From: Qipengyuania psychrotolerans | GTDB lineage: Bacteria > Pseudomonadota > Alphaproteobacteria > Sphingomonadales > Sphingomonadaceae | Reading direction: 5' to 3' | DNA: 64,000 bases | Assembly (NCBI RefSeq): GCF_019711355.1 | Contig: NZ_CP081297.1 | Span: forward strand, 1,116,001 to 1,180,000 | Shown: one piece after another, positions 22,747-39,870 of the stretch | Layout of the letters: each line of letters begins with the position of its first letter | Numbering within the stretch: the stretch's first letter is position 1 | Position numbers and translations under genes: made by a program | Notes under the pieces: generated by a model | The model's input: only the letters and a program-made list of their open reading frames with translations | The model's database searches: none | Told to the model about the DNA's origin: nothing

Positions 22747-23939
22747 GCGAAACTGAGACGATATTGCGCATTGCAGCCAAGGGTGATGGCGTCACCGCGT
22801 CTGGCAGGCATATCTCCGGAGCGGTCACCGGTGACGTCGTCGCGCCGGACGGTTCGATCACGCTTGGACCGCACCATGTCGAGCCACCCTGCCGTCATTT
22901 CGGCAAGTGCGGCGGCTGCCAGTTGCAGCAAGCCGACGATGATGCGTTGCGCCGCTTCGTGACGGAGCGGGTTGCGCTCTCTGCGGAGGGCCAGGACCTG
23001 GAGGTTGGCGAACTGCTCGCGACCCACCTGTCCCCGCCACTGAGCCGGCGCCGTGCCACTTTGCATGGCCAGCGGGCGGGCAAGGGCGCTGTCCTTGGTT
23101 TCCGCGAAGGACGCAGCAATCGGATCGTCGATATGCGGGAATGCCCTGTGCTCGCACCCGAACTGTTCGCGCTGGTCGCGCCATGTCGCAATCTGATCGC
23201 GAAATATGCCGGCAAGGGTCCGGTTGATATTGCCCTGACCCTGGCGGACCAAGGGATCGATTGCGCGATCAAGGGCATCGAGACTTCTGGACTTCAGGCA
23301 ACCGAAGAAATGCTGGAATTTGCAAAAGCCAATTCTCTGGCGCGCCTTTCGCTCGACCAGGGTTACGGACCTGAAACGGTGTGGGAGCCCGAACCGGTTA
23401 CGGTGACCTTGGGCGGGGTCGCGGTGCCTTTGACGTTTGGCGCGTTTCTGCAGCCGACCCGCGACGGAGAAGCTGCACTGCTTGCCGATGCGCGCGACTG
23501 GTTAAGCGGTGCGCAGACTATTGCCGACCTGTTTTCAGGTCTCGGAACCTTTGCTTTTGCACTCGCCGATCCTGCCAAGGTGCTGGCGGTCGAGGCTGCC
23601 CGCGATGCCCATCTGGCTTGCAAGGGCGCGGCAAATGCCCGCCGGTTGCCGGTTCACGCGATGCACCGCGACTTGTTCCGCAATCCGCTGGAGAGCGCCG
23701 AGATTTCGCGTTTCTCGGCCATTCTTCTTGATCCGCCGCGAGCAGGAGCACGGGAACAGGTCGCTCAAATTGCAGCGAGCGAGGTAAACCGTGTGGTCTA
23801 TGTCAGCTGCAATCCCTCAAGTTGGGGGCGCGATGCGAAGACATTGGTCGAGGCGGGCTTCCGGATCGAGAAATTGCGTCCCGTCGGGCAGTTCCGCTGG
23901 TCGACCCACGTCGAGCTGACCAGCCTCTTTACCCGCTAG
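22743..23939 (+). CDS. Class I SAM-dependent RNA methyltransferase, TrmA/RumA family
   Basis: 398 residues, GTG start at 22743 overlapping the previous stop as GTGA. It methylates C5 of a uridine in rRNA or tRNA. Fe-S cysteines are in CRHFGKCGGCQLQ near residues 57-69. Methyltransferase motifs are FLQPTRDGE, DLFSGLGTFAF, LDPPRAGA and the catalytic cysteine in YVSCNPSSWGRD. There is no clear N-terminal TRAM domain beyond a shortened ILRIAAKGDG strand. Target (RlmD-like U1939 or other) cannot be fixed from sequence. It ends 4 bases into the convergent hydrolase gene. Confidence 0.9.
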   Translation: MSETETILRIAAKGDGVTASGRHISGAVTGDVVAPDGSITLGPHHVEPPCRHFGKCGGCQLQQADDDALRRFVTERVALSAEGQDLEVGELLATHLSPPLSRRRATLHGQRAGKGAVLGFREGRSNRIVDMRECPVLAPELFALVAPCRNLIAKYAGKGPVDIALTLADQGIDCAIKGIETSGLQATEEMLEFAKANSLARLSLDQGYGPETVWEPEPVTVTLGGVAVPLTFGAFLQPTRDGEAALLADARDWLSGAQTIADLFSGLGTFAFALADPAKVLAVEAARDAHLACKGAANARRLPVHAMHRDLFRNPLESAEISRFSAILLDPPRAGAREQVAQIAASEVNRVVYVSCNPSSWGRDAKTLVEAGFRIEKLRPVGQFRWSTHVELTSLFTR

Positions 23940-24709
23940 CGGCGCAGCGCTTCCAAGACCTGGGCTAGCAGCCATTCTCTCGCGTGCGGCTCTGCATAGG
24001 AGTGCCCTGAACCCGAGCAGAGATGTATCCGCTCATCGGGACCCCAGTGCTCTGCAAAGATCTGTGCTGTACGGTCGTTCTCGGCCAGCAGGAACCGGAT
24101 TTGCCCACTGAAAGCCTCGAGGCCGGCCTTCATTTCCTCGGTCAGCGGCGATGTACTGGTCCCAATACTGGAAGCCTGTTTGAGACCATTCTTCAGCTTG
24201 CGGAAATCCACTCCGCCGGTCAGCAGACGCCAGATTTCACTCGGGTCGACCAGCTTACCGCGATACCTCGAGCGAACTGCCGAGGGCGGGGGCAACGCAT
24301 CATCATGATCGGCAAGTGTCCACGGATTGCTCAGCACGAGCCGGTCGCAACCCGCTCCCCCTGCGATCGCCAGCGCAGTTGCGGCATCGCAATTCCCGAA
24401 ACCGACCACACGTGACATTTGCGGGGCAAGGGCGCGGAAAGATTGCAGGGCCGCCGCGATATCCTTGCGTGACTTGAGATAGCCGCGGTCTTCACCGTCG
24501 CTATCGCCAATCCCGCGGCGATCAAAGCGGAACACCGGAAAGCCTGCCTTGGCCACTTCTGCGGCGAGGCGAGATTGCCAGCCAAAGGCACCAGCTCGCG
24601 GTTCCTGACCGCCCGTCACAATAAGCAATCCGGACGTGCCCGGTGCATTGTCGAGCGTCCCGGCGAGGTTCAGTCCGCTACAATGAAAAGCGAGGTGGTG
24701 GCGGCTCAT
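23936..24709 (-). CDS. Exosortase A-associated hydrolase 1 (alpha/beta hydrolase)
   Basis: 257 residues from the ATG at 24709, which overlaps the upstream stop as ATGA. It fits the alpha/beta-hydrolase family that accompanies exosortase A loci (TIGR03100 type). The oxyanion-side strand GLLIVTGGQEPRAGA, FRFDRRGIGDSDG, and the elbow VVGFGNCDAATAL are visible; the elbow residue is Cys in GNCDA rather than the Ser of GxSxG. The C-terminal SGSGHSYAEP supplies the catalytic His. It is the last gene of a minus-strand operon with an ACP. Substrate unknown; thioesterase or acyl transfer is inference. Confidence 0.83.
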   Translation of the reverse strand: MSRHHLAFHCSGLNLAGTLDNAPGTSGLLIVTGGQEPRAGAFGWQSRLAAEVAKAGFPVFRFDRRGIGDSDGEDRGYLKSRKDIAAALQSFRALAPQMSRVVGFGNCDAATALAIAGGAGCDRLVLSNPWTLADHDDALPPPSAVRSRYRGKLVDPSEIWRLLTGGVDFRKLKNGLKQASSIGTSTSPLTEEMKAGLEAFSGQIRFLLAENDRTAQIFAEHWGPDERIHLCSGSGHSYAEPHAREWLLAQVLEALRR

Positions 24710-25386
24710 TTTGCTGCGAGCTCGCTTGCGATGATGGCAGCGATTGACGCGGCTTGCCTGGCGCTGTCGGATGATTCCGACTGTAGCCAAGGAGGGCTTC
24801 CGGCGACTTGCGCATGTGCGATTTCTGCGTGGGTTGCCGAGGTGGCGTCCGTCGCTTCAATCAATTCGCGCACCATGTCCCCTCCAAGGTCCCAGCCAGC
24901 AATCAGACCGCCAGAGCGCGCGGCAGTCTCGACAATTTCCGACGCACTGCGCGGAGAGCCCGCTTCGCTTGCCGCAAGACTTTGCGCGCGGGCCATCGTG
25001 CGAAGCGTCTGGGAAGGAGCGGCAGGGGCGTAGACCCAGCCTGGCAAGGACCGAGGCGCCAGAATTGACGCCGTGCGTACCGCAAGCACGTGAGTAGCAT
25101 TGAATTGGACAGCTGCCGCTTGTGCGGCATGCTGCCAACCCGAAAGCGTCTGATTGCCCTGGGCGGCAAGGCTTTCATTCCAGCCTCCAAGGTCAGGAAT
25201 GACACTGGTGATGTGTTGTTCGGATAATTGCTGCGCGACCCCGAAAAGCAGCCGCCGCAGCTTGTTGGCCTCATCGAATAGCGGCGGGAGTATCAACAGT
25301 CTGCTGGAGCCAGAACCTTTGGCGATGTAAGCCATTTCCTCGCTTGTCCCACCATCACAGAGGGGGGCAGGCCAGCTTTCGTACAT
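24706..25386 (-). CDS. Exosortase A-associated hydrolase 2-like protein, degenerate
   Basis: 226 residues. The N-terminal LLILPPLFDEANKLRRLL corresponds to the PPFAEEMNK-RRM block of exosortase A hydrolase 2 (TIGR03101 type), and IPDLGGWNES follows as in alpha/beta hydrolases. No GxSxG or clear nucleophile elbow is present, and the C-terminal half is alanine/serine-rich and diverged. It may be a non-catalytic partner of hydrolase 1, to which it is coupled by a 4-base overlap. The family call rests on the N-terminal block and the neighbourhood. Confidence 0.65.
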   Translation of the reverse strand: MYESWPAPLCDGGTSEEMAYIAKGSGSSRLLILPPLFDEANKLRRLLFGVAQQLSEQHITSVIPDLGGWNESLAAQGNQTLSGWQHAAQAAAVQFNATHVLAVRTASILAPRSLPGWVYAPAAPSQTLRTMARAQSLAASEAGSPRSASEIVETAARSGGLIAGWDLGGDMVRELIEATDATSATHAEIAHAQVAGSPPWLQSESSDSARQAASIAAIIASELAAK

Positions 25387-25397
25387 ATGATTGCGGC

Positions 25398-25706
25398 TCA
25401 GCCTTCGATGATCTTGGCTTCGGCAAAGGCCAGTAGGCCGCCATATGTTTCCAGCATTTCACCGTCGACGTCATCATCTTCGATGATGATCGCAAGACGA
25501 TCTTCCATTTCGGTCAGAAGCGTCGCTACGGCCATGGAATCCAGTTCGGGAAGGTGTCCGAACAAGCCGGTGTCGCCGTCAAACTCCTCGACCTGCTGCG
25601 CATCCAGCGCCAGGACGTCACACAAGATACCGCGCAGCGTCGTATCGATCGAGCTGCGGCTCGGCCCGGTGGCCTCGGCTGTTGCGGTCTCGGACATAGG
25701 TATCAA
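25398..25706 (-). CDS. Acyl carrier protein, exosortase A locus
   Basis: 102 residues, acidic, with the phosphopantetheine motif LPELDSMAV; the carrier serine is Ser57. It is longer than FabF-pathway AcpP because of a 15-20 residue N-terminal extension, a trait of specialised carriers. Start choice: TTG at 25706 has AGGGA 5 bases upstream; the ATG at 25697 would give a protein 3 residues shorter. It sits between the GNAT-like gene and the two hydrolases, opposite an AMP-forming ligase, which suggests it carries the activated acyl or aminoacyl intermediate of this locus. Confidence 0.85.
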   Translation of the reverse strand: MIPMSETATAEATGPSRSSIDTTLRGILCDVLALDAQQVEEFDGDTGLFGHLPELDSMAVATLLTEMEDRLAIIIEDDDVDGEMLETYGGLLAFAEAKIIEG

Positions 25707-25736
25707 AACATTCCCTGCTGAAAAGCGGCTGTCGCC

Positions 25737-26726
25737 TTAGCTGCGCAGTTTCTGCGGTGCAAGGCGGCGTATGGACTGCTTGATGATCGCGCCCCAGGAC
25801 GAAGGCTGGCGCCAATCGAGGCAGGTGAGGGCGTAGCGTGGTCGGCGATGCTCCATCCAGTCGCTTTTATATGCATCAGTGCCTGTGCCGAAGTCGACCA
25901 GGGTCACCTTATCAGTGTCTATTACATGCTCGAACATGGCGGCAGTCAAAGTCGTGCCTGCCGACAGCGGATTCGCCTCCTCGATATGGGCAAGCTTGTG
26001 GATGTAGGCGGTGCCCTTCTCCACGGTCCAGAATTGCGCGGCGACCGGTTTGCCATCTGCTCTCGCGATGCCGAGACGCAGGTGCCCAAGTTCGCCTTCG
26101 CGGCGAGCGAACGCTTCGAGGAGGTCTTCTCGTTCCTCGGAAGGTTTCCAGCTTTTGGCGTAGATATCCTGATAAATACGCCAATTATCTTCATGAAATA
26201 CCGTATCTATCTCGATATCGACCTTCTTGCCTTTACGCTTGAGGGTAGTGCGCATCTGGCCGGATCTGTAGGACCAGTACTCGGCAAAACTTCGACCATC
26301 GACGTATAGGATATGATTTTCATCGCAGGGTTTGCGGAACACCATCCAGCCGGCCGACCGAAACGCTGATTGCAGACGGTCCACGCAATCGTCTTCTCCA
26401 GGCACAAGTCGAAGATCGATCCGACGGGTTCGTTTCCTGAGGTCCCTTGCGATGGCCCTAAGCGTTTCGTCAGCCCATTCGTCATTGCTGCCCCAAATCC
26501 GCCAGGAGAAGGTGAACCAGTTCGACAGGCTTTCCAGGCCGTTGGGGCCTTCCATCAGAGGAAGCGCGACCCGCCTGTATTCGCTTTCACCCAGTGCGAT
26601 TACCGGCCTGGTCCCGTAATCCTGTAAAAGCGCATACCAATCAAAGCGGTCGAAAGGTCCCGCGGGTTCATGCGACACCTCTTGCAGTTTCGTAACGGTG
26701 TCGTGATAGCTGACACTGATGACCAC
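25737..26726 (-). CDS. GNAT/FemAB-like (BioF2-type) acyltransferase
   Basis: 329 residues from a GTG at 26726 that has a GGGGGA ribosome binding site; the frame remains open to 26765 and beyond. The C-terminal half has the acetyltransf_6 pattern (GQMRTTLKRKGKK, YAKSWKPSE, PVAAQFWTVEKGTAYIHKLA, GTTLTAAMFEHVID, DFGTGTDAYKSDW). Proteins of this kind transfer acyl or aminoacyl groups, often in cell-surface assembly. It leads the minus-strand operon with the carrier protein and lies back to back with the ligase gene, so the two arms share a short divergent promoter region. Confidence 0.82.
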   Translation of the reverse strand: MVISVSYHDTVTKLQEVSHEPAGPFDRFDWYALLQDYGTRPVIALGESEYRRVALPLMEGPNGLESLSNWFTFSWRIWGSNDEWADETLRAIARDLRKRTRRIDLRLVPGEDDCVDRLQSAFRSAGWMVFRKPCDENHILYVDGRSFAEYWSYRSGQMRTTLKRKGKKVDIEIDTVFHEDNWRIYQDIYAKSWKPSEEREDLLEAFARREGELGHLRLGIARADGKPVAAQFWTVEKGTAYIHKLAHIEEANPLSAGTTLTAAMFEHVIDTDKVTLVDFGTGTDAYKSDWMEHRRPRYALTCLDWRQPSSWGAIIKQSIRRLAPQKLRS

Positions 26727-26763
26727 CGGATATCCCCCGACCGGAAATTTGCAGCCTGATCCC

Positions 26764-28269
26764 ATGCCCTATCCACTGGATCAACTGGCGGAGCGCGGCG
26801 ATGCACAGGCGCGGGCGCTGGTGCTTCGCGATCGGACGCTGACTTTCGGCGAGCTGCGTGAGCGAGTCAGCCTCCTCGCTGGATGGCTTGCGGATCGATT
26901 CGACCATGGACAGCGCATTGCAACATGGGCAGCCAAGGGTGAATTGACCTGCCTGATGCCTTTGGCGGCGGCCAGAGCAGGGGTAGTTCATGTTCCCATC
27001 AATCCCCTGCTGAAGCGCGCGCAGGTGGCCCATATCCTCGAGGACAGCGGTTCAGCGGGGTTGATTGCCACGCCAGCCCGCCTGAAATCGCTTCAGGTCG
27101 GCGATGCAGCGGACAGCTGCGAACTTGTTTCCGAAGAAGATATCTTTCCGATGGCGGTGGATCACGGACGGTCCCTCAAACCATCCAGCCATGATCCGGC
27201 TGATCTTGCCGCCATACTGTACACCAGCGGATCTACCGGACGGCCCAAGGGCGTGATGCTTAGTCACGCGAACCTCTGGCTCGGCGCCGTTTCCGTGGCC
27301 CATTACCTCGGCATGGCCAGCGACGATGTAACGCTTGCGGTGCTTCCGCTAAGCTTCGACTATGGGCAAAGCCAATTGCTCAGCACGTGGTACGCCGGTG
27401 GCTGCGCCGTGCCGCTGGATTACCTGTTCCCGAAAGACGTGGCGAAAGCCTGTGCAAAGCATCGCGTCACCACGCTTGCTGCAGTTCCCCCTTTGTGGGT
27501 GCAACTGTGCGAGATTGAATGGTCAGAAGATGCGAGCCGCTCGATGCGGAGGATCACTAATAGCGGCGGCGCATTGACGCCCGAATTGATCACAAGTTTG
27601 CGCGGTATATTCCCGAAAACTCGAATTTTTCCGATGTATGGCCTGACCGAAGCATTCCGCTCGACCTTTCTCGACCCGGATCTGGTGATGGAGCATCCGA
27701 CGTCTATGGGGACAGCGATCCCTTTCGCAGAGATCCTGGTGATTGATGATCAGGGCAAGATTGCCGAACCGGGTGCGGAGGGGGAACTCGTTCATTGCGG
27801 GCCGCTGGTGGCGCAAGGGTACTGGAATGACTCAAAGCGTACTGCGGAGCGGTTCAGACCCGCTCCAGTTGCTTCGGCATACGGGGGAACTGCTGTCTGG
27901 TCGGGCGACCGGGTTCGGCGTGATGCGAATGGCCTTTTGTATTTTGTCGGCCGCCGCGATGCGATGATCAAGAGCTCAGGCAACCGAATAAGTCCTCACG
28001 AGATCGAAAGCGCTGCCATGGCGACCAATCTCGTCGCTGAAGCGGTCGCAATCGGCGTCCCTGACTACGCGCTTGGCCAAGCGATCCACCTTGTCCTCAG
28101 GGCGAAATCTGCAGAGGAGGCAGGTGTGGAAACGAAACTGAAGCGCCTCTTGGCCCGTGAGCTACCCAATTTCATGCAACCCCACGCCATTCATTGGCGT
28201 GAGACGATGCCGATCAATCCCAACGGCAAGATTGACCGCGCTGCGCTGGCAAAGGAACTTGGGGCATGA
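26764..28269 (+). CDS. Acyl-CoA ligase (AMP-forming), exosortase A-associated
   Basis: 501 residues from ATG 26764 (an in-frame ATG at 26719 exists). The P-loop motif LYTSGSTGRPKG lies near residues 152-163, MYGLTEAFRSTF near residue 292 and the C-terminal lysine in NPNGKIDRAAL near residue 492. It matches the ligase subfamily tied to exosortase A loci (TIGR03098 type). With an adjacent carrier protein it probably acts as an acyl-AMP:ACP ligase; substrate unknown. It overlaps the decarboxylase gene by 4 bases (ATGA). Confidence 0.9.
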   Translation: MPYPLDQLAERGDAQARALVLRDRTLTFGELRERVSLLAGWLADRFDHGQRIATWAAKGELTCLMPLAAARAGVVHVPINPLLKRAQVAHILEDSGSAGLIATPARLKSLQVGDAADSCELVSEEDIFPMAVDHGRSLKPSSHDPADLAAILYTSGSTGRPKGVMLSHANLWLGAVSVAHYLGMASDDVTLAVLPLSFDYGQSQLLSTWYAGGCAVPLDYLFPKDVAKACAKHRVTTLAAVPPLWVQLCEIEWSEDASRSMRRITNSGGALTPELITSLRGIFPKTRIFPMYGLTEAFRSTFLDPDLVMEHPTSMGTAIPFAEILVIDDQGKIAEPGAEGELVHCGPLVAQGYWNDSKRTAERFRPAPVASAYGGTAVWSGDRVRRDANGLLYFVGRRDAMIKSSGNRISPHEIESAAMATNLVAEAVAIGVPDYALGQAIHLVLRAKSAEEAGVETKLKRLLARELPNFMQPHAIHWRETMPINPNGKIDRAALAKELGA

Positions 28270-29492
28270 AACCGGTGGGTCCGATTCCCGAAGGCTATTC
28301 GGCAATTGATGGCGAGCTCGCGATCAGTGGGAGGCGCGTCTCCCAGCTTGTCGAAGAGGCGGGCCGGACTCCGTTATTCGTTTATTCAAAAGACCTGATT
28401 GCTCAAAGAATGGCCCACCTGCGGGGCGCTATGCCGGGCAGGATAAAGGTCAATTATGCTATAAAAGCCAATAGCTTTGCACCACTTCTTGAGTTCATAT
28501 CCAAAGAAGTTGAAGGGCTTGATATCGCTTCGGGCGGAGAGCTCGAAATACTCCAGGCACTGGGTATCGCAGGCGAGCGTATCAGTTTCGCCGGGCCCGG
28601 AAAGCGGGATGCGGAGCTGGAGGCTGCGATTGCTGCCGGAGCAACCCTCAATCTCGAAAGCGAAAACGAGGCGGCGCGCGCCTTGGCCATTGGCGAGCGG
28701 CTTGGCATCACACCGCGGCTTGCGATCCGGGTTAATCCCGATTTCGAGCTCAAAGGCTCTGGAATGAAAATGGGTGGCGGTGCGAAACCCTTCGGAATCG
28801 ATGCGGAACGTGTGCCGAAACTCGCGAAGGAAATTACCGATGCAGGCTGCGAGTGGCGCGGGTTACACATTTTTACCGGATCCCAGGCGCTAGGGGCGGA
28901 TGCCGTAATTGAGGCTCAGAACAATATCCTCGATCTGGCGGACAGGATTGCCAAAGAGGCAGGATTGAAACTGCCGAAACTCAATATGGGCGGGGGTTTC
29001 GGGATTCCCTATTTCGCCGGTGACACCGCACTGGACATAGAATCTGTTGGTCATTCGCTCTCTAAGAGACTGGAGAATCTACCAGAAAGCCTCGATGGCG
29101 CGGAGCTTTTCATTGAACTTGGCAGGTATCTGGTGGGCGAGGCTGGGGTGTACCTGACGCGGATCATCGACCGGAAAGTAAGCCACGGGGAGACCTATCT
29201 CGTAACTGACGGTGGCCTCCATCATCAATTGGCGGCGTCGGGCAATTTCGGGACCGTTGTAAGGCGGAACTATCCGGTAGCAATCGCATCGCACTTCGGG
29301 TCAGAACCTACTGAAATTGCTAACATTGTCGGCTGCCTGTGCACTCCGCTGGACCGATTGGCGGACAAGGCGCATCTGCCCCGGGCCGAGGTAGGCGACC
29401 TCGTTGCCGTGTTCTGCGCCGGTGCATACGGCGCCAGCGCCTCTCCAAGCGCATTTCTTGGACAAGGGCCTGCAAAAGAAGTCCTGATTTGA
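28266..29492 (+). CDS. PLP-dependent decarboxylase, exosortase A-associated
   Basis: 408 residues of the fold III (ornithine/diaminopimelate/arginine) decarboxylase group, TIGR03099 type. The PLP lysine is Lys67 in NYAIKAN; the phosphate-binding glycine loop is NMGGGFGIPY, and the C-terminal active-site segment is FCAGAYGASASP, carrying the cysteine used across the dimer interface. Amino-acid specificity is not readable. Its coupling to an AMP-forming ligase implies that it supplies, or reshapes, an amine or amino acid for the ligase/ACP pathway; this is inference. Confidence 0.9.
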   Translation: MKPVGPIPEGYSAIDGELAISGRRVSQLVEEAGRTPLFVYSKDLIAQRMAHLRGAMPGRIKVNYAIKANSFAPLLEFISKEVEGLDIASGGELEILQALGIAGERISFAGPGKRDAELEAAIAAGATLNLESENEAARALAIGERLGITPRLAIRVNPDFELKGSGMKMGGGAKPFGIDAERVPKLAKEITDAGCEWRGLHIFTGSQALGADAVIEAQNNILDLADRIAKEAGLKLPKLNMGGGFGIPYFAGDTALDIESVGHSLSKRLENLPESLDGAELFIELGRYLVGEAGVYLTRIIDRKVSHGETYLVTDGGLHHQLAASGNFGTVVRRNYPVAIASHFGSEPTEIANIVGCLCTPLDRLADKAHLPRAEVGDLVAVFCAGAYGASASPSAFLGQGPAKEVLI

Positions 29493-29653
29493 GACGCCTG
29501 CGATTTTCGTGGTAAAGCCAAGCGATTCCGCGGCTTCCGACACCTATGACTAACGGTATGTTCACCTTTTTCCGGCAACACGGCATGTGAAATTGGGAAT
29601 AGTGCGCGGCGTGCAATGTGTGTGCCGTGCAGGTTACGACAGGGAATTTGCGA
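29493..29653 (+). promoter_or_regulatory. Upstream region of the polysaccharide export genes
   Basis: This 161-base gap is the only sizeable break in the plus-strand arm of the locus and probably holds its second promoter. It contains a 7-base inverted repeat CACGGCA (29579-29585) / TGCCGTG (29623-29629) spaced 37 bases, and a GACAGGGAA ribosome-binding stretch before 29654. No convincing sigma-54 -24/-12 pair was found, although XrtA loci elsewhere are often linked to PrsK/PrsR. Confidence 0.4.
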
Positions 29654-30295
29654 ATGCGTTCGATCCGTTTCACTGCCTCGATTGCCGTGCTTTGCGCCGG
29701 CCTTTCGCTGGGCGGCTGCGCGACCACCGGCGGTGACGAACTGCCACCGGCGACTTTTGTCGCCTTGCAGGAAGAGCCCGGCGAAGAATACGTAATCGGT
29801 CCTCTCGACGAGTTGACCATCCACGTCTGGCGCAATCCCGAACTCGGGGCCGAGAAGATCCAGGTTCGTCCTGATGGGCGTGTCACGATCCCCTTGGTCA
29901 AGGATCTGCCAGCCGTCGGCAAAACGCCGTCCATGCTGGAAGAAGATATCCGTCTCCAGCTGAGCCAGTATATCGAAGATCCGCTTGTATCGGTCATCGT
30001 AAACGAGTTTGCTGGCACCTTCAGTCAGCAAATTCGCATTGTCGGTGCGACAGAGAAGCCTGCTTCGCTTCCATACCGTGCAAACATGACCGTGCTTGAT
30101 GCCATGATCTCGGTCGGTGGATTGAGCGAATTTGCCGCGGGCAACCGTTCCAAGCTGATCCGTTTCGATAAGGAGGCGGGCACACAGCGTGAATATGCGC
30201 TGCGCCTGACTGATCTGCTCAAGCGGGGCGACAGCGACGCCAATGTTCTGCTGCGTCCCGGAGACGTCATCATCATTCCCGAAAGCGCCTTCTAA
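29654..30295 (+). CDS. epsE: XrtA-system polysaccharide export lipoprotein (Wza-like)
   Basis: 213 residues from ATG 29654. The signal peptide ends in the lipobox LGGC with Cys22. The Poly_export (SLBB) domain follows: YVIGPLDELTIHVWRNPEL, then VRPDGRVTIPLV, and a second SLBB strand region PYRANMTVLDAMISVGGL ending in LLRPGDVIIIPES. It forms the outer-membrane/periplasmic exit channel for the polysaccharide. The short length is normal for the exosortase-linked subfamily. It starts the export block, 14 bases before the chain-length determinant. Confidence 0.92.
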   Translation: MRSIRFTASIAVLCAGLSLGGCATTGGDELPPATFVALQEEPGEEYVIGPLDELTIHVWRNPELGAEKIQVRPDGRVTIPLVKDLPAVGKTPSMLEEDIRLQLSQYIEDPLVSVIVNEFAGTFSQQIRIVGATEKPASLPYRANMTVLDAMISVGGLSEFAAGNRSKLIRFDKEAGTQREYALRLTDLLKRGDSDANVLLRPGDVIIIPESAF

Positions 30296-30309
30296 GGAAG
30301 AGCGGGGGC

Positions 30310-31830
30310 ATGCAGGACATTATCGACCAGTTTCGCAGCGCGCTGCACACGATCTGGAACCGCCGCTGGATAGCCTTGGCGGTGGCCTGGGCCGTTTGCG
30401 TGCTTGGATGGCTGGCCGTGGCAATGATCCCGAACAGCTATGAGAGCCGCGCCCGCATTTTCGTCGAGCTTGACGATGTACTGGGTGAGGAACTCGACAT
30501 TGCCAACGGCGGTGAAGAGGCGATTACTCGCGTCCGCCAAACCCTGACCAGCGCGAACAATCTGGAAAAAATCATCCGGTCGACCCAGCTAGGTGACAAG
30601 GTCCAGACCGATATCGAGATGCAGTCGGCGATCGCCAACCTGTCGGACAAGATCCGAGTCAGCCTGCAACAGGACAATCTGTTCGAAATCACTGCGACCA
30701 TCGGGCAGGGCAGCTTGTCTGACGCAGAAAATGCCAAGCTTTCCCAGGAAGTCGTCCAGCGGATGATCGACCTGTTCCGCGAACAGAACATCGCCGACAA
30801 CCGCGGAGACGTGGCGCAGACGATGATCTTCCTCGAGCAGCAGCTCGAAGAGCGCAAGAAAGAGCTCGAGACGATCGAGCAACGCCGCCTTGCGTTTGAA
30901 GCCGCTAATCCAGAAGCTGTTGTGGGAGCGGGGGCCAGCGCTTTGCGATTGCAGAACATGCGCAGTGAAATGCGTAATGTGGATGCCGATATTTCTGCCG
31001 CTCAAAGCGCTTTAGCAGCAATCAACGGTCAGATTGCCGGCACGCCGCGCACAATCGTCATGCCCGGTTCGGGCGGCGGCGCACGCGGTGCATTGATGCA
31101 GGCCGAGGCACAGCTTTCGAGCATGAGATCCCGCGGACTGACTGACAACCACCCCGACGTGATTTCTCAGACGCGGCAGGTCGAAGCACTTCGTCGCCAG
31201 ACGGCTGCAGAACCTGCGGATGCTGGTGGCTCGCTCAACCCGGCATATAGCTCGCTCGTCTCGATACGGACCGAACGTCAGGCTAACGTGCAAGCGTTGC
31301 AGGCACGTAAGGTCGCTCTTCAATCCGATATTTCCGCATTGATTGCATCGCAGGCTCAGGAACCCGCCGTAGCGGCTGAAGCGCGCCGTATCAGCCGCGA
31401 CTATGAAGTCCAGAAAGAGAAATACGACGAACTTCTTCAAAGCCGCGAGAGGATGCGCGTGCGGGGAGATTACGAGACCAATCGCAACTCTTTCCAGTTC
31501 GACGTCATTGATCCGCCGATCCTGCCGCAGAAGCCTGCAGCCCCCAACCGACCGATATTGCTGATTGGGGTTCTTCTGGCGGGCCTGCTCGCCGGAGCAG
31601 GGATTGCGTTCATGTTGGGTTTGCTCCGTTCGAGCTTCACGACTGCCGAGCGCCTGGAAAAAGCGCTGGAGCTGCCGGTAATCGGCACGGTTTCGCGTTC
31701 GCCAACGGAAAAAACCCGCATCCTTGAGAAACTTCGGTTGAAGCAATTCCTGGCCGGATCGGCAGGCTTGGCGGGCATCTGTCTTCTGCTGCTGCTGGTC
31801 GAGATCATCCAAGTCGGCTCGGTGGCTTGA
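30310..31830 (+). CDS. epsF: XrtA-system chain length determinant (Wzz/GumC-like)
   Basis: 506 residues. One transmembrane helix lies near residues 20-37 (ALAVAWAVCVLGWLAV), a long periplasmic coiled-coil follows (heptad-rich segments such as EQQLEERKKELETIEQ near 177-192), then PPILPQKPAAPNRP and a second helix near 415-435, with a third C-terminal hydrophobic segment. This is the polysaccharide co-polymerase architecture that sets chain length, here without a fused kinase domain. The kinase is the next gene. Confidence 0.92.
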   Translation: MQDIIDQFRSALHTIWNRRWIALAVAWAVCVLGWLAVAMIPNSYESRARIFVELDDVLGEELDIANGGEEAITRVRQTLTSANNLEKIIRSTQLGDKVQTDIEMQSAIANLSDKIRVSLQQDNLFEITATIGQGSLSDAENAKLSQEVVQRMIDLFREQNIADNRGDVAQTMIFLEQQLEERKKELETIEQRRLAFEAANPEAVVGAGASALRLQNMRSEMRNVDADISAAQSALAAINGQIAGTPRTIVMPGSGGGARGALMQAEAQLSSMRSRGLTDNHPDVISQTRQVEALRRQTAAEPADAGGSLNPAYSSLVSIRTERQANVQALQARKVALQSDISALIASQAQEPAVAAEARRISRDYEVQKEKYDELLQSRERMRVRGDYETNRNSFQFDVIDPPILPQKPAAPNRPILLIGVLLAGLLAGAGIAFMLGLLRSSFTTAERLEKALELPVIGTVSRSPTEKTRILEKLRLKQFLAGSAGLAGICLLLLLVEIIQVGSVA

Positions 31831-31834
31831 GGAG

Positions 31835-32836
31835 ATGAGCGTGAACAAGCCCACCAATATCTCTGCCGACGATCGGGAAAAATCGGCCAAACGCGCTTCG
31901 CTTCTCGAAAAGGCGAGCGACGCATTTGGTCTCGACAACCTTTCCCCGGCGGCGGTTCCCGTCATGCTGGAGAGCGACAAGGCGAAGAAGTTCGCTTCGA
32001 AGCGAAAAGTAACTGAGCAACCAGCGATTGCCGATCAACCGGTTCCGTCGCCTTCCGCAAACACGCCTACGAAGTTGGAACGACCTGCCGAAGTGCCAGC
32101 AGTGGCTTTCTCTGGCGACAGACAAACAGTTGCGCGCGAATTGCTGCGAGATCAGGGACTGATTGATCCGGATGGCGGCGCGTCGCGGCTCCTTGAAGAA
32201 TTCCGCATTGTGAAACGGCAGGTTCTTGCGACTGCCAAGGTCGAGGGCTCCGCCGCTTCGCGCAGGGTTTTGGTATGTTCGCCGCATCCGAACGAAGGCA
32301 AGACGTTCTGCGCTTTGAACCTTGCTCTGGCGATGGCCGCCGAACGTGACGGCGAAGTCCTGCTCATCGACGCCGATTTCGGAAAACCTTCCATTCTCTC
32401 GAAGCTCGGGCTTCATAGCGATACCGGTTTTATGGACGTGCTTGCCGACCCTTCGGCCCATGTCGAGGATCATGTCGTGGGGACCGATATACCCGGCCTC
32501 TGGGTCCTAGGCGCTGGTGCGCGGACTGGCCGTGATAGCGAATATCTGGCCAGCGAGCGCACATGGGAAGTGCTGAACCGCCTGACGCGCGGCGCGCCCA
32601 ATCGTATGATTGTTTTCGACAGTCCTCCGGCGCTTGCCGCAACTCCGGCTAGCGAACTGGCCAAGCATGTCGGGCAAGCATTGCTGGTGGCTCGCGCCGA
32701 TTCCACGGGACAGGTTGCCCTGGAGGATGCAATCGACCTCCTCTCTGCCTGCCCCGACATCCGCCTCCTTCTCAACGACGCCACGTTCAGCCCAAGCGGG
32801 CGAAAGTTCGGCAGTTATTACGGATATGGGGAGTGA
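31835..32836 (+). CDS. epsG: XrtA-system tyrosine-kinase-like P-loop protein
   Basis: 333 residues. The N-terminal 110 residues are low-complexity and likely disordered. The Walker A' motif HPNEGKT is at residues 151-157, Walker A-like strand VLLIDADFGKPS follows, and Walker B reads IVFDSPPAL. The C-terminal GSYYGYGE provides a small tyrosine cluster as expected for BY-kinases. It is the cytoplasmic partner of the chain-length determinant upstream (4-base gap) and controls polymerisation and export by cyclic autophosphorylation in relatives. Confidence 0.9.
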   Translation: MSVNKPTNISADDREKSAKRASLLEKASDAFGLDNLSPAAVPVMLESDKAKKFASKRKVTEQPAIADQPVPSPSANTPTKLERPAEVPAVAFSGDRQTVARELLRDQGLIDPDGGASRLLEEFRIVKRQVLATAKVEGSAASRRVLVCSPHPNEGKTFCALNLALAMAAERDGEVLLIDADFGKPSILSKLGLHSDTGFMDVLADPSAHVEDHVVGTDIPGLWVLGAGARTGRDSEYLASERTWEVLNRLTRGAPNRMIVFDSPPALAATPASELAKHVGQALLVARADSTGQVALEDAIDLLSACPDIRLLLNDATFSPSGRKFGSYYGYGE

Positions 32837-32843
32837 TCTGGCG

Positions 32844-34484
32844 ATGAAGCGGATCACTAACCTGGCAGCGATTCTCGCGTTCGCCTTTGCTTCTCCGGCC
32901 GCGGCGCAGGAGATGGGAGATGAAGATAGTTCGCGGGGTTCGGCTCAGCAGGCGGACCGCACGCGCATCGATCCGTATATCGAGGCGTCCCAGATATTCA
33001 CCTGGCAGTTTTACCCGGTCGACGAGCTAGTCACCTACACCCAGCTGGCCGCCGGTGTGGATGCGCAAATTCGCGGCCGCAACAGCGGGGCCGCCGTCGC
33101 GCTTCGCTATGAGCGCAATTTTGCCTGGAACGAGAATGCTCGCGACAATGATACTCTGACCGGCATTGTCCGCGGTTATACCGCGATAGTGCCGCGCACC
33201 CTCCAGATCGAAGCCGGTGCGCTCGCCAGCAGGACGCGTGTCGATCGTGCCGGGGGCTCGGTCCTCGCGCCAATCGTAGGGGACGATGACAATGTCTCCC
33301 AGACCTACGCGCTCTACGCCGGGCCGACTCTCACCACTCGCGTGGACGACGTCAAAATCGATGCCAACTACCGTATCGGCTATACCCGTGTTGAGGGTCC
33401 GGATTTTGTGACACTCGGCGGCAATGCCGTGGATGTGTTTGACGAAAGCATCTCGCAATCAGCGATGGTTCGCGCTGCAACCTCGGTGGGTGTTCCGTTT
33501 CCAATCGGCGTCGGTGTGGGCGCAGGCTATTATCAGGAAGACATCGACAATCTCGACCAGCGCGTACGCGATGCCTATGTCCGCGGCGATTTGACAGTCC
33601 CGGTTAATCCGACGCTTGCAATCGTGGCGGGGGCCGGATTGGAAAACGTCGAGGTCTCTGCGCGAGATGCCGTGCGCGACGTTGAAGGCAACCCGATTAT
33701 CGGCCCCGATGGCCGCTTTCTCGTGGATTCCGACAGTCCGCGCCGCATCGCATATGAAGCAGATGGCTTGATTTGGGATGTCGGCGTTATCTGGCGCCCG
33801 AGCAGCCGTACCGAATTGCAGGCAAGCTTCGGCCGCCGGTACGACAGCGACACCTATTACGGCAGCTTCACATGGAAGCCTACCAGTCGCTCGAACCTGG
33901 GCATTGCAGTATATGATTCCATCCAGGGCTTCGGCGGCACAGTGACCAATGCCCTGTCGGCACTACCTACCGATTTCGAAGTCATTCGCGATCCGATCAC
34001 CGGTGACATCACGGGATGCACCAGCCCGACAATCGGCAGCAATTGCCTGTCGGGTCTGCTGGGCTCGGTCCGCTCGTCCGTGTTTCGCGGACGCGGTGTC
34101 GCAGCCAGCTATACCCAGCAGGTCGGCCTCATGACGGCGGGAATTGCAGCAGGTTACGACAACCGCAAATTCATTGCAGCGCCCGAGACGGTGCTGGCCA
34201 TCGCCAATGATATCGTCGACGAATCCTACTATATCACGACCGGAGTGAGCGGCCCGATCTGGAGCGGTAGCTTCTCGGTGAACAGCTTCGCCAATTGGTT
34301 CGACAGCGGTATCGGCGATCTGGGTGATACCTTCAGCTACGGCAGTGCAGCGACATATCAGCAAAGCGTCTGGCGGAACCTGTCGGCGCGCGCTGCACTG
34401 TCTATCTACGCAGTCGACAACGAGATTACCGACGCCGATATTCGCGCGGCGAGTGCACTTCTCGGCCTGCGCTACGATTTCTGA
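32844..34484 (+). CDS. XrtA-associated outer-membrane beta-barrel protein
   Basis: 546 residues from ATG 32844, 7 bases after the previous stop. A signal peptide MKRITNLAAILAFAFASPAAAQ is followed by a chain of amphipathic beta strands (YIEASQIFTWQFYPVD, AALRYERNF-like, ASYTQQVGLMTAGIAAGYD) and a C-terminal strand ALLGLRYDF ending in Phe, the usual outer-membrane barrel signature. It matches the uncharacterised TIGR03016-type PEP-CTERM-associated family. It may act as the polysaccharide exit porin or surface scaffold. Two cysteines near residues 392 and 399 in CTSPTIGSNC may form a loop disulfide. Confidence 0.85.
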   Translation: MKRITNLAAILAFAFASPAAAQEMGDEDSSRGSAQQADRTRIDPYIEASQIFTWQFYPVDELVTYTQLAAGVDAQIRGRNSGAAVALRYERNFAWNENARDNDTLTGIVRGYTAIVPRTLQIEAGALASRTRVDRAGGSVLAPIVGDDDNVSQTYALYAGPTLTTRVDDVKIDANYRIGYTRVEGPDFVTLGGNAVDVFDESISQSAMVRAATSVGVPFPIGVGVGAGYYQEDIDNLDQRVRDAYVRGDLTVPVNPTLAIVAGAGLENVEVSARDAVRDVEGNPIIGPDGRFLVDSDSPRRIAYEADGLIWDVGVIWRPSSRTELQASFGRRYDSDTYYGSFTWKPTSRSNLGIAVYDSIQGFGGTVTNALSALPTDFEVIRDPITGDITGCTSPTIGSNCLSGLLGSVRSSVFRGRGVAASYTQQVGLMTAGIAAGYDNRKFIAAPETVLAIANDIVDESYYITTGVSGPIWSGSFSVNSFANWFDSGIGDLGDTFSYGSAATYQQSVWRNLSARAALSIYAVDNEITDADIRAASALLGLRYDF

Positions 34485-34497
34485 TAAGGACGTTTCG

Positions 34498-35700
34498 ATG
34501 TACGAGGAATTCTACGGCTTCTCTGAGCGCCCTTTCCAGTTAACACCGGATCCGGCGTTCTATTTCGAAAGCATCACGCACAGGAAGGCCCTGAGCTACC
34601 TCGGCTATGGCCTGAACCAGGGCGAGGGCTTCGTTGTCATCACCGGTGAAGTCGGCGCCGGTAAGTCCACGCTGGTCGCCCACCTCAAACAAAAGCTCGA
34701 TGATCGCCGCATGACTGTTGGTGAAGTGGTGACCAGCGCGCTTGACGGCGAAGAAATGATTCACGTTGCAGCGCGCAGTTTCGGCCTCGACGTCGACGGC
34801 GGCGACAAGGCGAGCGCGCTCGCTGCGATTGAACAGTTCCTGCATGAAGAGGCCCGCCAAGGCCGCCGGGTTTTGCTCATCGTCGACGAGGCGCAGAACC
34901 TCTCGATCGGTGCGCTGGAAGAGCTCAGGATGCTCTCGAACTTCCAGCTCGGATCGCATCCCTTGTTGCAGACCCTGCTGCTTGGCCAGCCGGAATTCAA
35001 ACACCTGCTCGCTCAGTCTGACGAACTTGAACAGCTTCGCCAGCGCGTGATTGCAGCGCATCATCTCGAAGCGATGCAGCCAGGCGAGATGGAGCCTTAT
35101 GTCTCCCACCGCCTAGAGCATGCAGGCTGGACCGGAAATCCGGAATTTGCCAGCGGCGTGTGGCCGCGCCTTCACAAGGCCACGCATGGTATTCCGCGCA
35201 AGGTCAACCAGGTGATGAACCGCCTGCTATTGATGGGTTCGCTCGAAGAGCAGGCTGTGCTTGAAGTCGATATGCTCGACGCGGTCATTGAAGAGATGGC
35301 GGTCGATGCATCTGCTGACGACGGCTCTGCCGACCCGCGCGTAAGGCCAGATCGAAATCTTCCAGCCAGCGACGCTATCGCAAGGGCGCGCACACAAGCA
35401 GCGCCTCCTGCCGCAATGTCTAAAGCGGATGGTGAAGCGCGGCAAAAGGGCCTTCTCGATGCGCAGATCGAGGCCATTGAGGGGGCATTCGCCGAGCGGG
35501 ACAAGCAAATGGTTTCGCTTCGCAGCGAAGTACAGAAGCTTGCGGCCACTCGCGCCGATGGCGGCGAAATGCCAGGTGACCTTGGTGACCGTCTGGCTGC
35601 TATCGAAGCGCGCCTCGACGAGCAGGAACGCTCGCTACGGCATGTGCTTGCGATGATGATCGACTATTTCGAGTCGGCCAGCACCCGCGAAGCTGCCTGA
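34498..35700 (+). CDS. XrtA-associated AAA ATPase (ExeA-like)
   Basis: 400 residues from ATG 34498. The N-terminus MYEEFYGFSERPFQLTPDP is the signature of ExeA/GspA-like ATPases. Walker A GEVGAGKST is at residues 50-58, Walker B VLLIVDEAQNL near residue 125. The C-terminal third, after about residue 280, is charged with heptad-like helices. It fits the TIGR03015-type XrtA-associated ATPase. Role inferred: energising or organising envelope assembly; no peptidoglycan-binding domain is evident. Confidence 0.9.
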   Translation: MYEEFYGFSERPFQLTPDPAFYFESITHRKALSYLGYGLNQGEGFVVITGEVGAGKSTLVAHLKQKLDDRRMTVGEVVTSALDGEEMIHVAARSFGLDVDGGDKASALAAIEQFLHEEARQGRRVLLIVDEAQNLSIGALEELRMLSNFQLGSHPLLQTLLLGQPEFKHLLAQSDELEQLRQRVIAAHHLEAMQPGEMEPYVSHRLEHAGWTGNPEFASGVWPRLHKATHGIPRKVNQVMNRLLLMGSLEEQAVLEVDMLDAVIEEMAVDASADDGSADPRVRPDRNLPASDAIARARTQAAPPAAMSKADGEARQKGLLDAQIEAIEGAFAERDKQMVSLRSEVQKLAATRADGGEMPGDLGDRLAAIEARLDEQERSLRHVLAMMIDYFESASTREAA

Positions 35701-35724
35701 CGGCGCTGGGGGCGGGGGCAGACC

Positions 35725-36597
35725 ATGGGAGAAAGCAGCATCGTCAACGGCCTTTCGGTCGACGTCGAGGACTGGTTTCAAGTCGGCGCTTTCGAAGACA
35801 CGCTGAAACGCGAGGATTGGGATAGCCTCCAATTGCGGGTCGGTGACAATGTCGCCCGTATTCTCGACCTTTTTGATGAAGCCGGAGTGAAGGCAACGTT
35901 CTTCACGCTTGGCTGGGTGGCAGAACGCAACAAGCAGGCCATGCGCGCCATCGTTGACCGCGGTCACGAGCTCGCCAGCCACGGCTATGATCACACGCGC
36001 GTATTCAAGTTTACCCGCCAGGAATTTGGCGAAGACCTCGCAAGAGCGCAGGCGATCCTCGAGGACGCCGGCGGCGCTCCCATCAATGGCTACCGTGCGC
36101 CAAGCTTCTCCATCGACGCCCGCAACCCTTGGGCACATGAAGTGCTGGCCGAGCACGGTTATGTCTATTCTTCAAGCGTGGCACCGGTAGTTCACGATCA
36201 CTACGGTTGGCGGGAAGCGCCTCGGTTCGCGTTCAATCCGGTTCCGGGAAGCGACCTCGTGGAAATCCCGGTCACGACCGCCCTGCTTGCAAATCGCCGT
36301 CTTGCAGCGGGTGGGGGCGGCTTCTTCAGAGTGCTGCCCTACGGATTCAGCACTTGGGCCATCAAACAGGTCAACCGCACAGACGGGCGGCCCGCGGTCT
36401 TTTATTTCCATCCATGGGAAGTCGATCCGGACCAGCCGCGCGTTACGAATGCTCCGCTACGCTCTCGGCTGCGGCATTACACAAACCTTTCCAAGATGGC
36501 CGGCAAGCTGAGCGATTTGCTCGGTGATTTTGCCTGGGGCCGGATGGATGAACTGGCCGAGCGGGAAAAGGCGCGCGCACTGGACTGGGCGGCGTGA
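35725..36597 (+). CDS. XrtA-system polysaccharide deacetylase
   Basis: 290 residues, carbohydrate esterase 4 fold with C-terminal DUF3473. Metal and catalytic residues are visible: Asp13 and Asp16 in SVDVEDWF, His86 and His90 in SHGYDHT, the arginine motif GYRAPSFSID near residue 119, and the C-terminal His in YFHPWEVDP. It removes N-acetyl groups from the polysaccharide, making it cationic. No signal peptide is present, as usual for this subfamily. It overlaps the FemAB gene by 4 bases (GTGA). Confidence 0.92.
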   Translation: MGESSIVNGLSVDVEDWFQVGAFEDTLKREDWDSLQLRVGDNVARILDLFDEAGVKATFFTLGWVAERNKQAMRAIVDRGHELASHGYDHTRVFKFTRQEFGEDLARAQAILEDAGGAPINGYRAPSFSIDARNPWAHEVLAEHGYVYSSSVAPVVHDHYGWREAPRFAFNPVPGSDLVEIPVTTALLANRRLAAGGGGFFRVLPYGFSTWAIKQVNRTDGRPAVFYFHPWEVDPDQPRVTNAPLRSRLRHYTNLSKMAGKLSDLLGDFAWGRMDELAEREKARALDWAA

Positions 36598-37655
36598 ACG
36601 CTCCGCTGGCCTTGCAAGAAACCGTTCGCCAAGCTGATCTAACGGATCAGTTAGAGGTGCAGCGGATCGAAGCTTTCGTAGCTGAGCTTTCGGGTACCGC
36701 GTTTCACCGCCCTTCATGGCTGCGCGCTATCGAAACCGGGACGGGCCAGAATGCACTTGGCCTTGTGACTGAGAGGACTGGAGCCATCACGGGCTGGCTG
36801 CCGCTAAGCGATATTCACTCGCCGCTTTTCGGACGCGCGCTGGTGTCCAGCGGATTCGGGGTCGGCGGCGGTGTTCTTTGTGCAGATGAAGGTTCGGTCG
36901 CCCCGCTTTGCGCCGCAGCTGTAGAATTGGCGCAGCGCCATGGTGCGACGTCGATCGAACTACGCAGCGAGTTAGCAGTCGAAGATTGGCAATTCGTCGA
37001 GGGCAAGCACGCTGGGTTCGAGGCGGGCTTAGCGGGCGATGACGAAGCACAGCTACTCGCGATCCCGCGCAAAGCACGCGCTGAAGTTCGCAAGGGCCTG
37101 AAGAACAATCTCGAGATAACCACGGGACGTTCTCCAAAGGATTTGGCTGCGCATTATGCCTGCTATTCCGAAAGCGTCCGGAATCTGGGTACGCCCGTCT
37201 TTCCCAAGTCTTTGTTTGCGGCCGTGATCGAAGAGTTTGGCGATGACGCTGACATTCTCACCGTCAGCCACCAGGGCATGCCCATCGCAAGTGTTCTCTC
37301 ACTGTATCATGAAGGCTCCGTGATGCCTTACTGGGGCGGAGGAGGCTTGGCGGCACGCAGTCTGCGAGCCAACGAGCGCATGTATTACGAGTTGATGTGT
37401 CACGCGCGCCGACGCGGCTGTGTGAAGTTCGACTTCGGCCGCTCCAAACTCGGCAGCGGTCCATACAGTTTCAAGAAGAACTGGGGCTTCGAACCGCAGC
37501 CGCTGACCTACCGGACATGGGCTGCCTCAAGCCAGAAGGCGCGCAATATTGACCCGACAGATGAAGGGTATTCGGCCAAGATCAAGCTTTGGAAAAAGCT
37601 GCCGCTACCGGTAGCGAACCTGATCGGCCCTTGGATCGCCCGCGGACTTGGCTGA
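36594..37655 (+). CDS. FemAB-family XrtA-associated protein
   Basis: 353 residues, GTG start at 36594. The FemAB/GNAT double-fold pattern is present: FHRPSWLRAIETGTGQ near residue 40, ATSIELRSEL near residue 117, RKARAEVRKGLKN near residue 160, and SLYHEGSVMPYWGG near residue 235, then FDFGRSKLGSGPYSFKKNWGF. It matches the TIGR03019-type protein of XrtA loci. FemAB relatives attach amino acids to cell-wall precursors from aminoacyl-tRNA; here the donor and acceptor are unknown, and the locus's own carrier protein is a possible donor (inference). Confidence 0.88.
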   Translation: MNAPLALQETVRQADLTDQLEVQRIEAFVAELSGTAFHRPSWLRAIETGTGQNALGLVTERTGAITGWLPLSDIHSPLFGRALVSSGFGVGGGVLCADEGSVAPLCAAAVELAQRHGATSIELRSELAVEDWQFVEGKHAGFEAGLAGDDEAQLLAIPRKARAEVRKGLKNNLEITTGRSPKDLAAHYACYSESVRNLGTPVFPKSLFAAVIEEFGDDADILTVSHQGMPIASVLSLYHEGSVMPYWGGGGLAARSLRANERMYYELMCHARRRGCVKFDFGRSKLGSGPYSFKKNWGFEPQPLTYRTWAASSQKARNIDPTDEGYSAKIKLWKKLPLPVANLIGPWIARGLG

Positions 37656-37659
37656 AGAC

Positions 37660-39859: not shown

Positions 39860-39870
39860 GGCTTGCCGCC

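Follow-up and report, generated by a model that had tools for sequence, protein, structure and literature searches.

Decarboxylation of an amino acid while it is bound to a carrier protein is chemistry already known from natural products. In the biosynthesis of AFC-BC11, L-aspartate is loaded through its side chain and then decarboxylated on the carrier by a pyridoxal phosphate (PLP) enzyme, a sequence reconstituted in vitro according to the excerpted text of PMC12186527. Excerpts on the Burkholderia sets AfcQ/AfcK/AfcP (AFC-BC11) and BolO/BolC/BolN (bolagladins) describe a VinN-type ligase, a stand-alone carrier, and a BtrK-like PLP decarboxylase in each; the two reactions on aspartate are reported in vitro for the Afc set and proposed, with a bolN deletion, for the Bol set. 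Partial accounts of VinN/VinL/VinO (vicenistatin, Streptomyces) give the same reaction order on 3-methylaspartate, which VinN loads via the side-chain carboxylate. BtrK/BtrI of butirosin belong here through the decarboxylase family: BtrK acts on an L-glutamyl-carrier, with glutamate as substrate (PDB title; PMC7857480), and the excerpt of PMC7857480 has BtrK’s group acting on conjugated amino acids. Here, we investigated a six-gene module encoding a ligase, a PLP decarboxylase, a carrier, a GNAT protein, and two hydrolase-like proteins beside an exosortase A (XrtA) polysaccharide locus in a 64-kb stretch (the window) of the 2.74-Mb single-contig genome of Qipengyuania psychrotolerans (NZ_CP081297.1).

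The module has a VinN-type ligase, stand-alone carrier, and BtrK-like decarboxylase like the Afc and Bol sets. However, those sets feed lipopeptides and have KAS III-like enzymes nearby, whereas here the setting is a polysaccharide/exosortase A locus, with a FemX-fold GNAT protein and a hydrolase pair. The vicenistatin route continues with a protecting alanine and a polyketide synthase, and no such gene is among the six.

Taken as a whole, the module is best explained as one for carrier-bound amino acid decarboxylation, a reading to which we give a probability of roughly 70%. The ligase would adenylate an acidic alpha-amino acid, most likely L-aspartate, at its side-chain carboxylate and load it onto the carrier phosphopantetheine. 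The BtrK-like enzyme would then strip the free alpha-carboxyl from the carrier-bound amino acid and leave an omega-aminoacyl thioester, which for aspartate is beta-alanyl. Transfer of this group to a polysaccharide or envelope acceptor, or its release, would in exosortase A genomes fall to a complex of a Cys-hydrolase and a pseudo-hydrolase and, where there is one, the FemX-fold GNAT protein. We propose this chemistry mainly because in AFC-BC11 such a ligase loads the L-Asp side chain first and the PLP enzyme decarboxylates on the carrier. On-carrier decarboxylation of an acidic amino acid is likely to be the activity; the transfer to polysaccharide or envelope in exosortase A genomes is a tentative proposal. 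The sequence evidence covers family, conservation of substrate residues, co-occurrence, and separability of the core trio of carrier, ligase, and decarboxylase. The original prediction of a small thiotemplate pathway embedded in a polysaccharide locus is supported.

Ligase, decarboxylase, and carrier

The six open reading frames (ORFs) of the module were confirmed in the window. The core trio is as follows:

26719..28269, plus strand: VinN-type adenylating ligase, TIGR03098 (624.2 bits; VinN 3wvn, 174.4 bits)
28266..29492, plus strand: BtrK-like fold-type III PLP decarboxylase, TIGR03099, with Lys67, Cys359, and Thr360 (578.3 bits; BtrK match)
25398..25706, minus strand: stand-alone carrier with phosphopantetheine Ser at codon 25536-25538 (PF00550, 25.3 bits)

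The ligase, for which ATG at 26764 is a possible alternative start, scores above the TIGR03098 cut-off of 592.35 bits. VinN is its best solved single-stretch match; multidomain synthetases score higher by summing two stretches. Asp214, Ser282, and Arg314 sit at the VinN substrate positions Asp230, Ser299, and Arg331. Both the Asp and the Arg are present in 49 of 49 partner ligases, defined as every ligase scoring over 190 bits to that of the window plus L111, without L123 (the window’s own again) and L110 (a nonribosomal peptide synthetase). We also surveyed 80 named relatives, where 75 of 77 ligases have the pair and the other two are gapped at the Asp. The pair occurs together in none of 11 other ligases of the genome (11 of the 12 others; L127 was left out) and none of 11 other adenylating enzymes in the loci. 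An Asp at position 230 was seen in 0 of the 11 own-genome controls with a finer alignment and in 2 with a faster one, neither of which has Arg331. The earlier suggestion that the ligase acts on the carrier is supported.

The decarboxylase passes the TIGR03099 cut-off of 478.45 bits, and its best solved relative is BtrK (233.8 bits), followed by diaminopimelate decarboxylase (149.8 bits). Against the LysA model TIGR01048 it reaches 242.8 bits, under the cut-off of 297.9, and the genome encodes a separate LysA (435.4 bits). Sampled LysA rows have CE[ST][GS]D after the catalytic Cys in 13 of 13 cases, whereas the window decarboxylase has LCTPLD there; the Glu following the Cys, kept in all 13, is Thr. 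LCTP or a close form is found in the TIGR03099 rows and BtrK, and LCTP in 80 of 80 named relatives. The alignment took in the window, 52 neighborhoods (29 over the TIGR03099 cut-off and 23 below), nine plasmid loci, LysA proteins, and printed stretches of BtrK and the A. aeolicus protein. From the tree we left out L099 and L100 (the same genes as L085 and L086) and L104 and L105 (further relatives in this genome); VinO and AfcP stood outside the set. The resulting 78-row maximum-likelihood tree groups BtrK with TIGR03099 proteins, their below-cut-off cousins, and natural-product clusters (55 rows, support 95/90), with LysA set apart (13 rows, 100/100). Ten rows with LCTG, LCTS, or LCTPK motifs branch separately (99/94). 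By motif and tree, the decarboxylase is assigned to the BtrK group, of the presumptive carrier-bound type, apart from LysA. Identity as a diaminopimelate, ornithine, or arginine decarboxylase was rejected on motif, tree, and the separate LysA. As a side observation, the type III PLP enzymes of L079-L084, which carry LCTG/LCTS and HV[YF]AASG motifs, form a clade of their own; in L080, L083, and L084 a similar gene set follows (about 395, 145, and 460 amino acids).

These results bear on a scheme in which the carrier receives a fatty or other acid from the ligase, a free basic amino acid is independently turned into an amine by the decarboxylase, and the GNAT protein couples acid and amine. The family names alone fit it, and the enzyme folds do not forbid it. 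However, the ligase substrate residues, the placement with BtrK, and the lost LysA motif Glu speak against it, and no acid-making gene is among the six; we regard it as quite unlikely. In the original prediction, too, the decarboxylase would act separately and provide an amine made from ornithine, lysine, arginine, or diaminopimelate, a role at odds with the BtrK relationship, the LCTPLD motif, and the genome’s own LysA. It is more likely that ligase and decarboxylase act in sequence on the same carrier-bound amino acid.

The carrier (start at TTG 25706 or ATG 25697) is above the PF00550 cut-off of 20.8 bits, and among solved structures 2lki_A, a “putative uncharacterized protein,” comes closest (43.8 bits). 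With a loose pattern, the Ser motif is kept in 59 of 60 carrier matches of the first set; the one that fails is the second fragment of L107. The motif reads ELDS or EFDS in 71 of 71 named loci. L107 itself (L107:13145-13508, Sinorhizobium [S. meliloti] ml45 pSymB) has the carrier gene next to its ligase-decarboxylase pair split over two overlapping frames, and this gene may be interrupted in that strain.

Co-occurrence and the separable core

Among 398 Pseudomonadota genomes, 30 have TIGR03099 over cut-off, and all 30 have TIGR03098 (29 over cut-off, and G126 at 548.7 bits). Ligase and decarboxylase lie within the same 20-kb stretch in 29 of the 30, the exception being G102, and that stretch includes the carrier in 29, the exception being G318, whose carrier is elsewhere. 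The anticipated co-occurrence outside this genome was thus found. XrtA is over cut-off in 35 of the 398 genomes, 27 of which also have TIGR03099 (Fisher test, 1.5e-31). Restriction of the module to XrtA genomes was not borne out, as only these 27 of the 30 TIGR03099 genomes have XrtA over cut-off. The other three comprise G107 and G396, with no XrtA match, and G155, with a below-cut-off match of 127.7 bits. Conversely, eight XrtA genomes are without the module; one of the XrtA-only genomes, G368, has a below-cut-off TIGR03098-like ligase (420.8 bits). Plasmid loci of S. meliloti and Aureimonas have no exosortase in their annotated flanks.

Among the 80 named relatives, seven loci keep carrier, ligase, and decarboxylase, while their fetched flanks show none of the genes for hydrolase 1, hydrolase 2, GNAT, polysaccharide export, FemAB, or XrtA; two further such loci are 3-kb contigs. 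Gene-by-gene maps were made for six of the seven. Whole genomes were checked for absence of XrtA and hydrolase 1 in the case of G396, G155 (whose locus is row L152), and G107; for the other loci, the check covered the fetched flanks. Remnants of a polysaccharide locus persist: L135 and L136 each have a TIGR03015-like ATPase (308.2 and 314.6 bits, respectively; cut-off 324.5), and L152 has a deacetylase. On a 41-row tree, the eight rows scored as having no polysaccharide genes need five changes, at least four of them forced by well-supported branches; one of these rows, L182, is an artifact of a contig end, and seven remain without it. The ratio of nonsynonymous to synonymous substitution rates (Ka/Ks) was computed for six trio-only pairs and four controls. 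Three pairs had at least one saturated Ks; in two trio-only pairs the ratio is 0.05–0.16 for all three genes, like the neighboring rlmD, although with Ks of at least 1 these values are rough. Pair L150–L161 gives 0.11, 0.10, and 0.09. Because the trio is kept, and is under purifying selection where tested, without the other genes, it has a use without an adjacent polysaccharide locus. On these sequence patterns, we take carrier, ligase, and decarboxylase to be the core of the module.

In G396, the trio stands alone (L041:7239-10491) between a pyridine-nucleotide oxidoreductase gene (PF07992; thioredoxin reductase-like by eye) and truA (TIGR00071), and the whole genome has no XrtA, TIGR03006, or TIGR03100 over cut-off. 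A Streptomyces sp. CA-256286 plasmid (L111:8944-13028) carries a BtrK-like gene annotated lysA, a holo-ACP synthase, a VinN-type ligase, and a carrier next to ectA/ectB/ectoine synthase and a P450, likely a natural-product cluster using the same trio. In a Burkholderia cenocepacia replicon (L109), ORFs found with ligase and decarboxylase resemble, by eye, KAS III, acyl-CoA dehydrogenase, and LuxR/LuxI; this cluster differs from the exosortase A setting.

The carrier could alternatively serve mainly to supply a fatty acyl group to an exosortase-associated acyltransferase of the TIGR03694 type, with ligase and decarboxylase as unrelated neighbors. A TIGR03694 gene does adjoin the ligase-decarboxylase pair in two loci (L053:10865-11632, 269.2 bits; L054:8526-9347, 245.7 bits; cut-off 111.95). 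However, L053 has no carrier beside that pair, TIGR03694 is not among the six module genes or ten scanned locus genes of the window, and carrier, ligase, and decarboxylase stay together where nearly all else is lost. We consider this arrangement highly improbable.

GNAT protein, hydrolase pair, and polysaccharide context

The remaining features of the window are as follows:

25737..26765, minus strand: PF13480 GNAT protein with FemX/aminoacyl-transferase fold (PF13480, 68.2 bits; structure model)
24706..25386, minus strand: hydrolase 2 homolog with Arg at the nucleophile elbow, codon 25075-25077 (24.3 bits to TIGR03101)
23936..24709, minus strand: hydrolase 1, TIGR03100, alpha/beta hydrolase with Cys nucleophile at codon 24389-24391 (213.7 bits)
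26709..26763, no strand: short divergent spacer between the two conserved coding starts of GNAT and ligase (from sequence; annotated ORFs overlap here)
29618..41769, plus strand: exosortase A polysaccharide locus, as context (NCBIfam matches)

Hydrolase 1, hydrolase 2, carrier, and GNAT on the minus strand are back to back with ligase and decarboxylase on the plus strand. The ligase and decarboxylase genes share a 4-base overlap. The frame of hydrolase 1 is open from 24790, and its likely start is at 24709, where it overlaps hydrolase 2 by an ATGA. These translational overlaps suggest two divergent operons, and the spacer is probably the site of both promoters.

The GNAT protein is well above the PF13480 cut-off of 22 bits. 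A search of solved structures by its sequence returned only chance matches to unrelated viral proteins. Its structure model (predicted local distance difference test [pLDDT] 93.4) matches FemX, FemA, and Sbb17, an aminoacyl-transferase fold that agrees with the earlier acyltransferase claim. Identity to FemX/FemA and Sbb17/Sba18 is only 8–14% in structural alignments, and those enzymes take the aminoacyl group from tRNA, whereas here the carrier is the proposed donor. The alignments behind the structure models, each with the window protein among its rows, took in 53 of the 64 rows for GNAT and 52 of the 63 for hydrolase 1. An upstream ORF of the rhizobial loci, GNAT-like by eye, was set aside as a GNAT candidate, as Pfam gives no match for L107, L108, and L040.

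Hydrolase 1 exceeds the TIGR03100 cut-off of 168.45 bits, and its Cys, Asp, and His are invariant in all 52 aligned rows. Feruloyl esterases, DcsB, and GrgF match its model (pLDDT 84.6) about equally. Hydrolase 2 falls far below the TIGR03101 cut-off of 202.75 bits; we regard it as a diverged homolog because it has the same place and the same Arg elbow as its positional counterparts, an Arg at the nucleophile spot occurring in 90 of 90. It is probably a pseudo-hydrolase rather than an active enzyme, to judge from that residue. The prediction of two diverged alpha/beta hydrolases stands for hydrolase 1, with its conserved Cys nucleophile, and probably fails for hydrolase 2, with its conserved Arg. 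In G126 (L061), hydrolases 2 and 1 are fused (residues 44–298 and 321–616 of a 620-residue frame), which suggests a hydrolase 1/hydrolase 2 complex. All 27 genomes that combine TIGR03099 and XrtA also have hydrolase 1: it lies inside the locus in 26, positives that rest on a custom profile rather than the curated cut-off, and elsewhere in G318. It is over cut-off in none of the eight XrtA-only and none of the three TIGR03099-only genomes, 10 of these 11 having TIGR03100 matches under cut-off (best 58.1 bits). One Burkholderia exopolysaccharide-cluster gene is listed as TIGR03100 in the excerpt of PMC3584217.

The adjoining locus contains TIGR03027, 03007, 03018, 03016, 03015, 03006 deacetylase, 03019 FemAB, 03087, XrtA TIGR03109, and 03108, with TIGR03018 and TIGR03016 under their own cut-offs. 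The TIGR03006 polysaccharide deacetylase was rejected as a module part, being over cut-off also in eight of eight XrtA genomes without the trio. At the far end of the locus is a 4HBT thioesterase-family gene (43650-44117, minus strand).

Several observations weigh against carrier-bound decarboxylation as the module’s role. VinN Lys330 is Phe in the window ligase, and VinN Phe231 is replaced by Tyr in the window and by Ala in further members. Glutamate or some other acidic amino acid may therefore be the substrate, although we still favor aspartate as the somewhat more probable one. The BtrK branch is long in the decarboxylase tree, and BtrK’s own carrier BtrI is presumably loaded by another kind of enzyme than a VinN-type ligase. 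The G102 ligase is 1.9 Mb away from the decarboxylase, the G318 carrier and hydrolases are far from ligase and decarboxylase, and 11 of 23 fetched below-cut-off decarboxylase loci have no ligase match nearby. Many exosortase A loci are without a GNAT protein, which therefore cannot be the sole transferase. Finally, we found no biochemistry on any TIGR03098/03099 protein in the open-licence literature.

A possible link to beta-alanine and coenzyme A

With aspartate as substrate and release of the product, the trio would yield beta-alanine, the compound made by PanD, which is an unrelated pyruvoyl enzyme acting on free aspartate. The trio’s main job in the window’s family might then be to supply free beta-alanine to pantothenate and coenzyme A synthesis in place of PanD, with the polysaccharide use secondary. 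This is compatible with the chemistry of carrier-bound decarboxylation proposed above. The gene panD is present in 197 of the 398 genomes but absent from 30 of 30 with TIGR03099, versus 171 of 368 others (Fisher test, 6e-10, which ignores ancestry), and panC is present in 29 of those 30 and in 36 of 38 genomes tested. TIGR03099 occurs in 19 of 19 sampled genomes of the window’s family, and the GAD/PanP family PF00282 is absent from 16 of the 19, including the window genome and the two without XrtA over cut-off. Loci without GNAT, hydrolases, and most polysaccharide genes still retain the trio, with purifying selection acting on it in the pairs tested. A 4HBT hotdog thioesterase, a possible product releaser, lies at most about 3 kb from the trio in six of six scanned trio-only loci, although a 4HBT gene also flanks the full locus in the window and may be a chance neighbor. 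The part of PMC7142369 consulted (Table A2) lists panB, panC, and PYD1 and no ADC, PYD2, PYD3, AAM, GabT, or GAD for Erythrobacter sp. SD-21, whose locus (L136) is trio-only, but the same table gives GAD for two other Erythrobacter strains.

Shared ancestry is strong, as 19 of the 30 TIGR03099 genomes are of one family, and seven of the eight XrtA genomes without the trio are also without panD. In family f43, 8 of 11 sampled genomes have no panD, yet only two have TIGR03099. G327 has neither panD nor TIGR03099, though PF00282 is present, and G338 has the trio and no panC match. In families f40 and f83, probably gammaproteobacteria, PF00282 is present in four of four trio genomes and within a few kb of panC in two of the four. 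Of 10 genomes tested in these families, 6 have a PF00282 decarboxylase no more than about 4 kb from panC (e.g., G375:C11:57575-59990); this enzyme is probably PanP. The beta-alanine routes scanned were panD and PF00282, with uracil and other routes outside the scan. Ancestry explains much of the panD/TIGR03099 association, and several panD-less genomes are without the trio. Beta-alanine supply for coenzyme A is a serious possibility; as the trio’s main job, we judge it possible but on balance unlikely. Slightly less likely still is a joint arrangement, in which the trio would be an unrecognized beta-alanine route (aspartate decarboxylated on the carrier) feeding pantothenate and coenzyme A in Erythrobacteraceae and other PanD-less bacteria, while exosortase A genomes would also put beta-alanyl on surface polysaccharide via the FemX-fold transferase and the Cys-hydrolase/pseudo-hydrolase complex.

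In Haft 2006 (PMC1569441), the words decarboxylase, ligase, acyl carrier, hydrolase, and asparagine synth are all absent. We found no account of a TIGR03098-03101 pathway in the open-licence literature, nor any mention there of this chemistry in exosortase A or other polysaccharide loci, of the ligase residue evidence, of a core that can stand apart, or of the panD pattern. In the libraries searched, TIGR03098-03101 have names but no pathway, and carrier-bound decarboxylation assigns each core gene a candidate reaction. Rather than an “exosortase accessory,” the module would be a movable unit supplying omega-aminoacyl groups, common to polysaccharide and natural-product loci. If the beta-alanine link is true, a gap in coenzyme A biosynthesis would be filled for a common group of marine bacteria.

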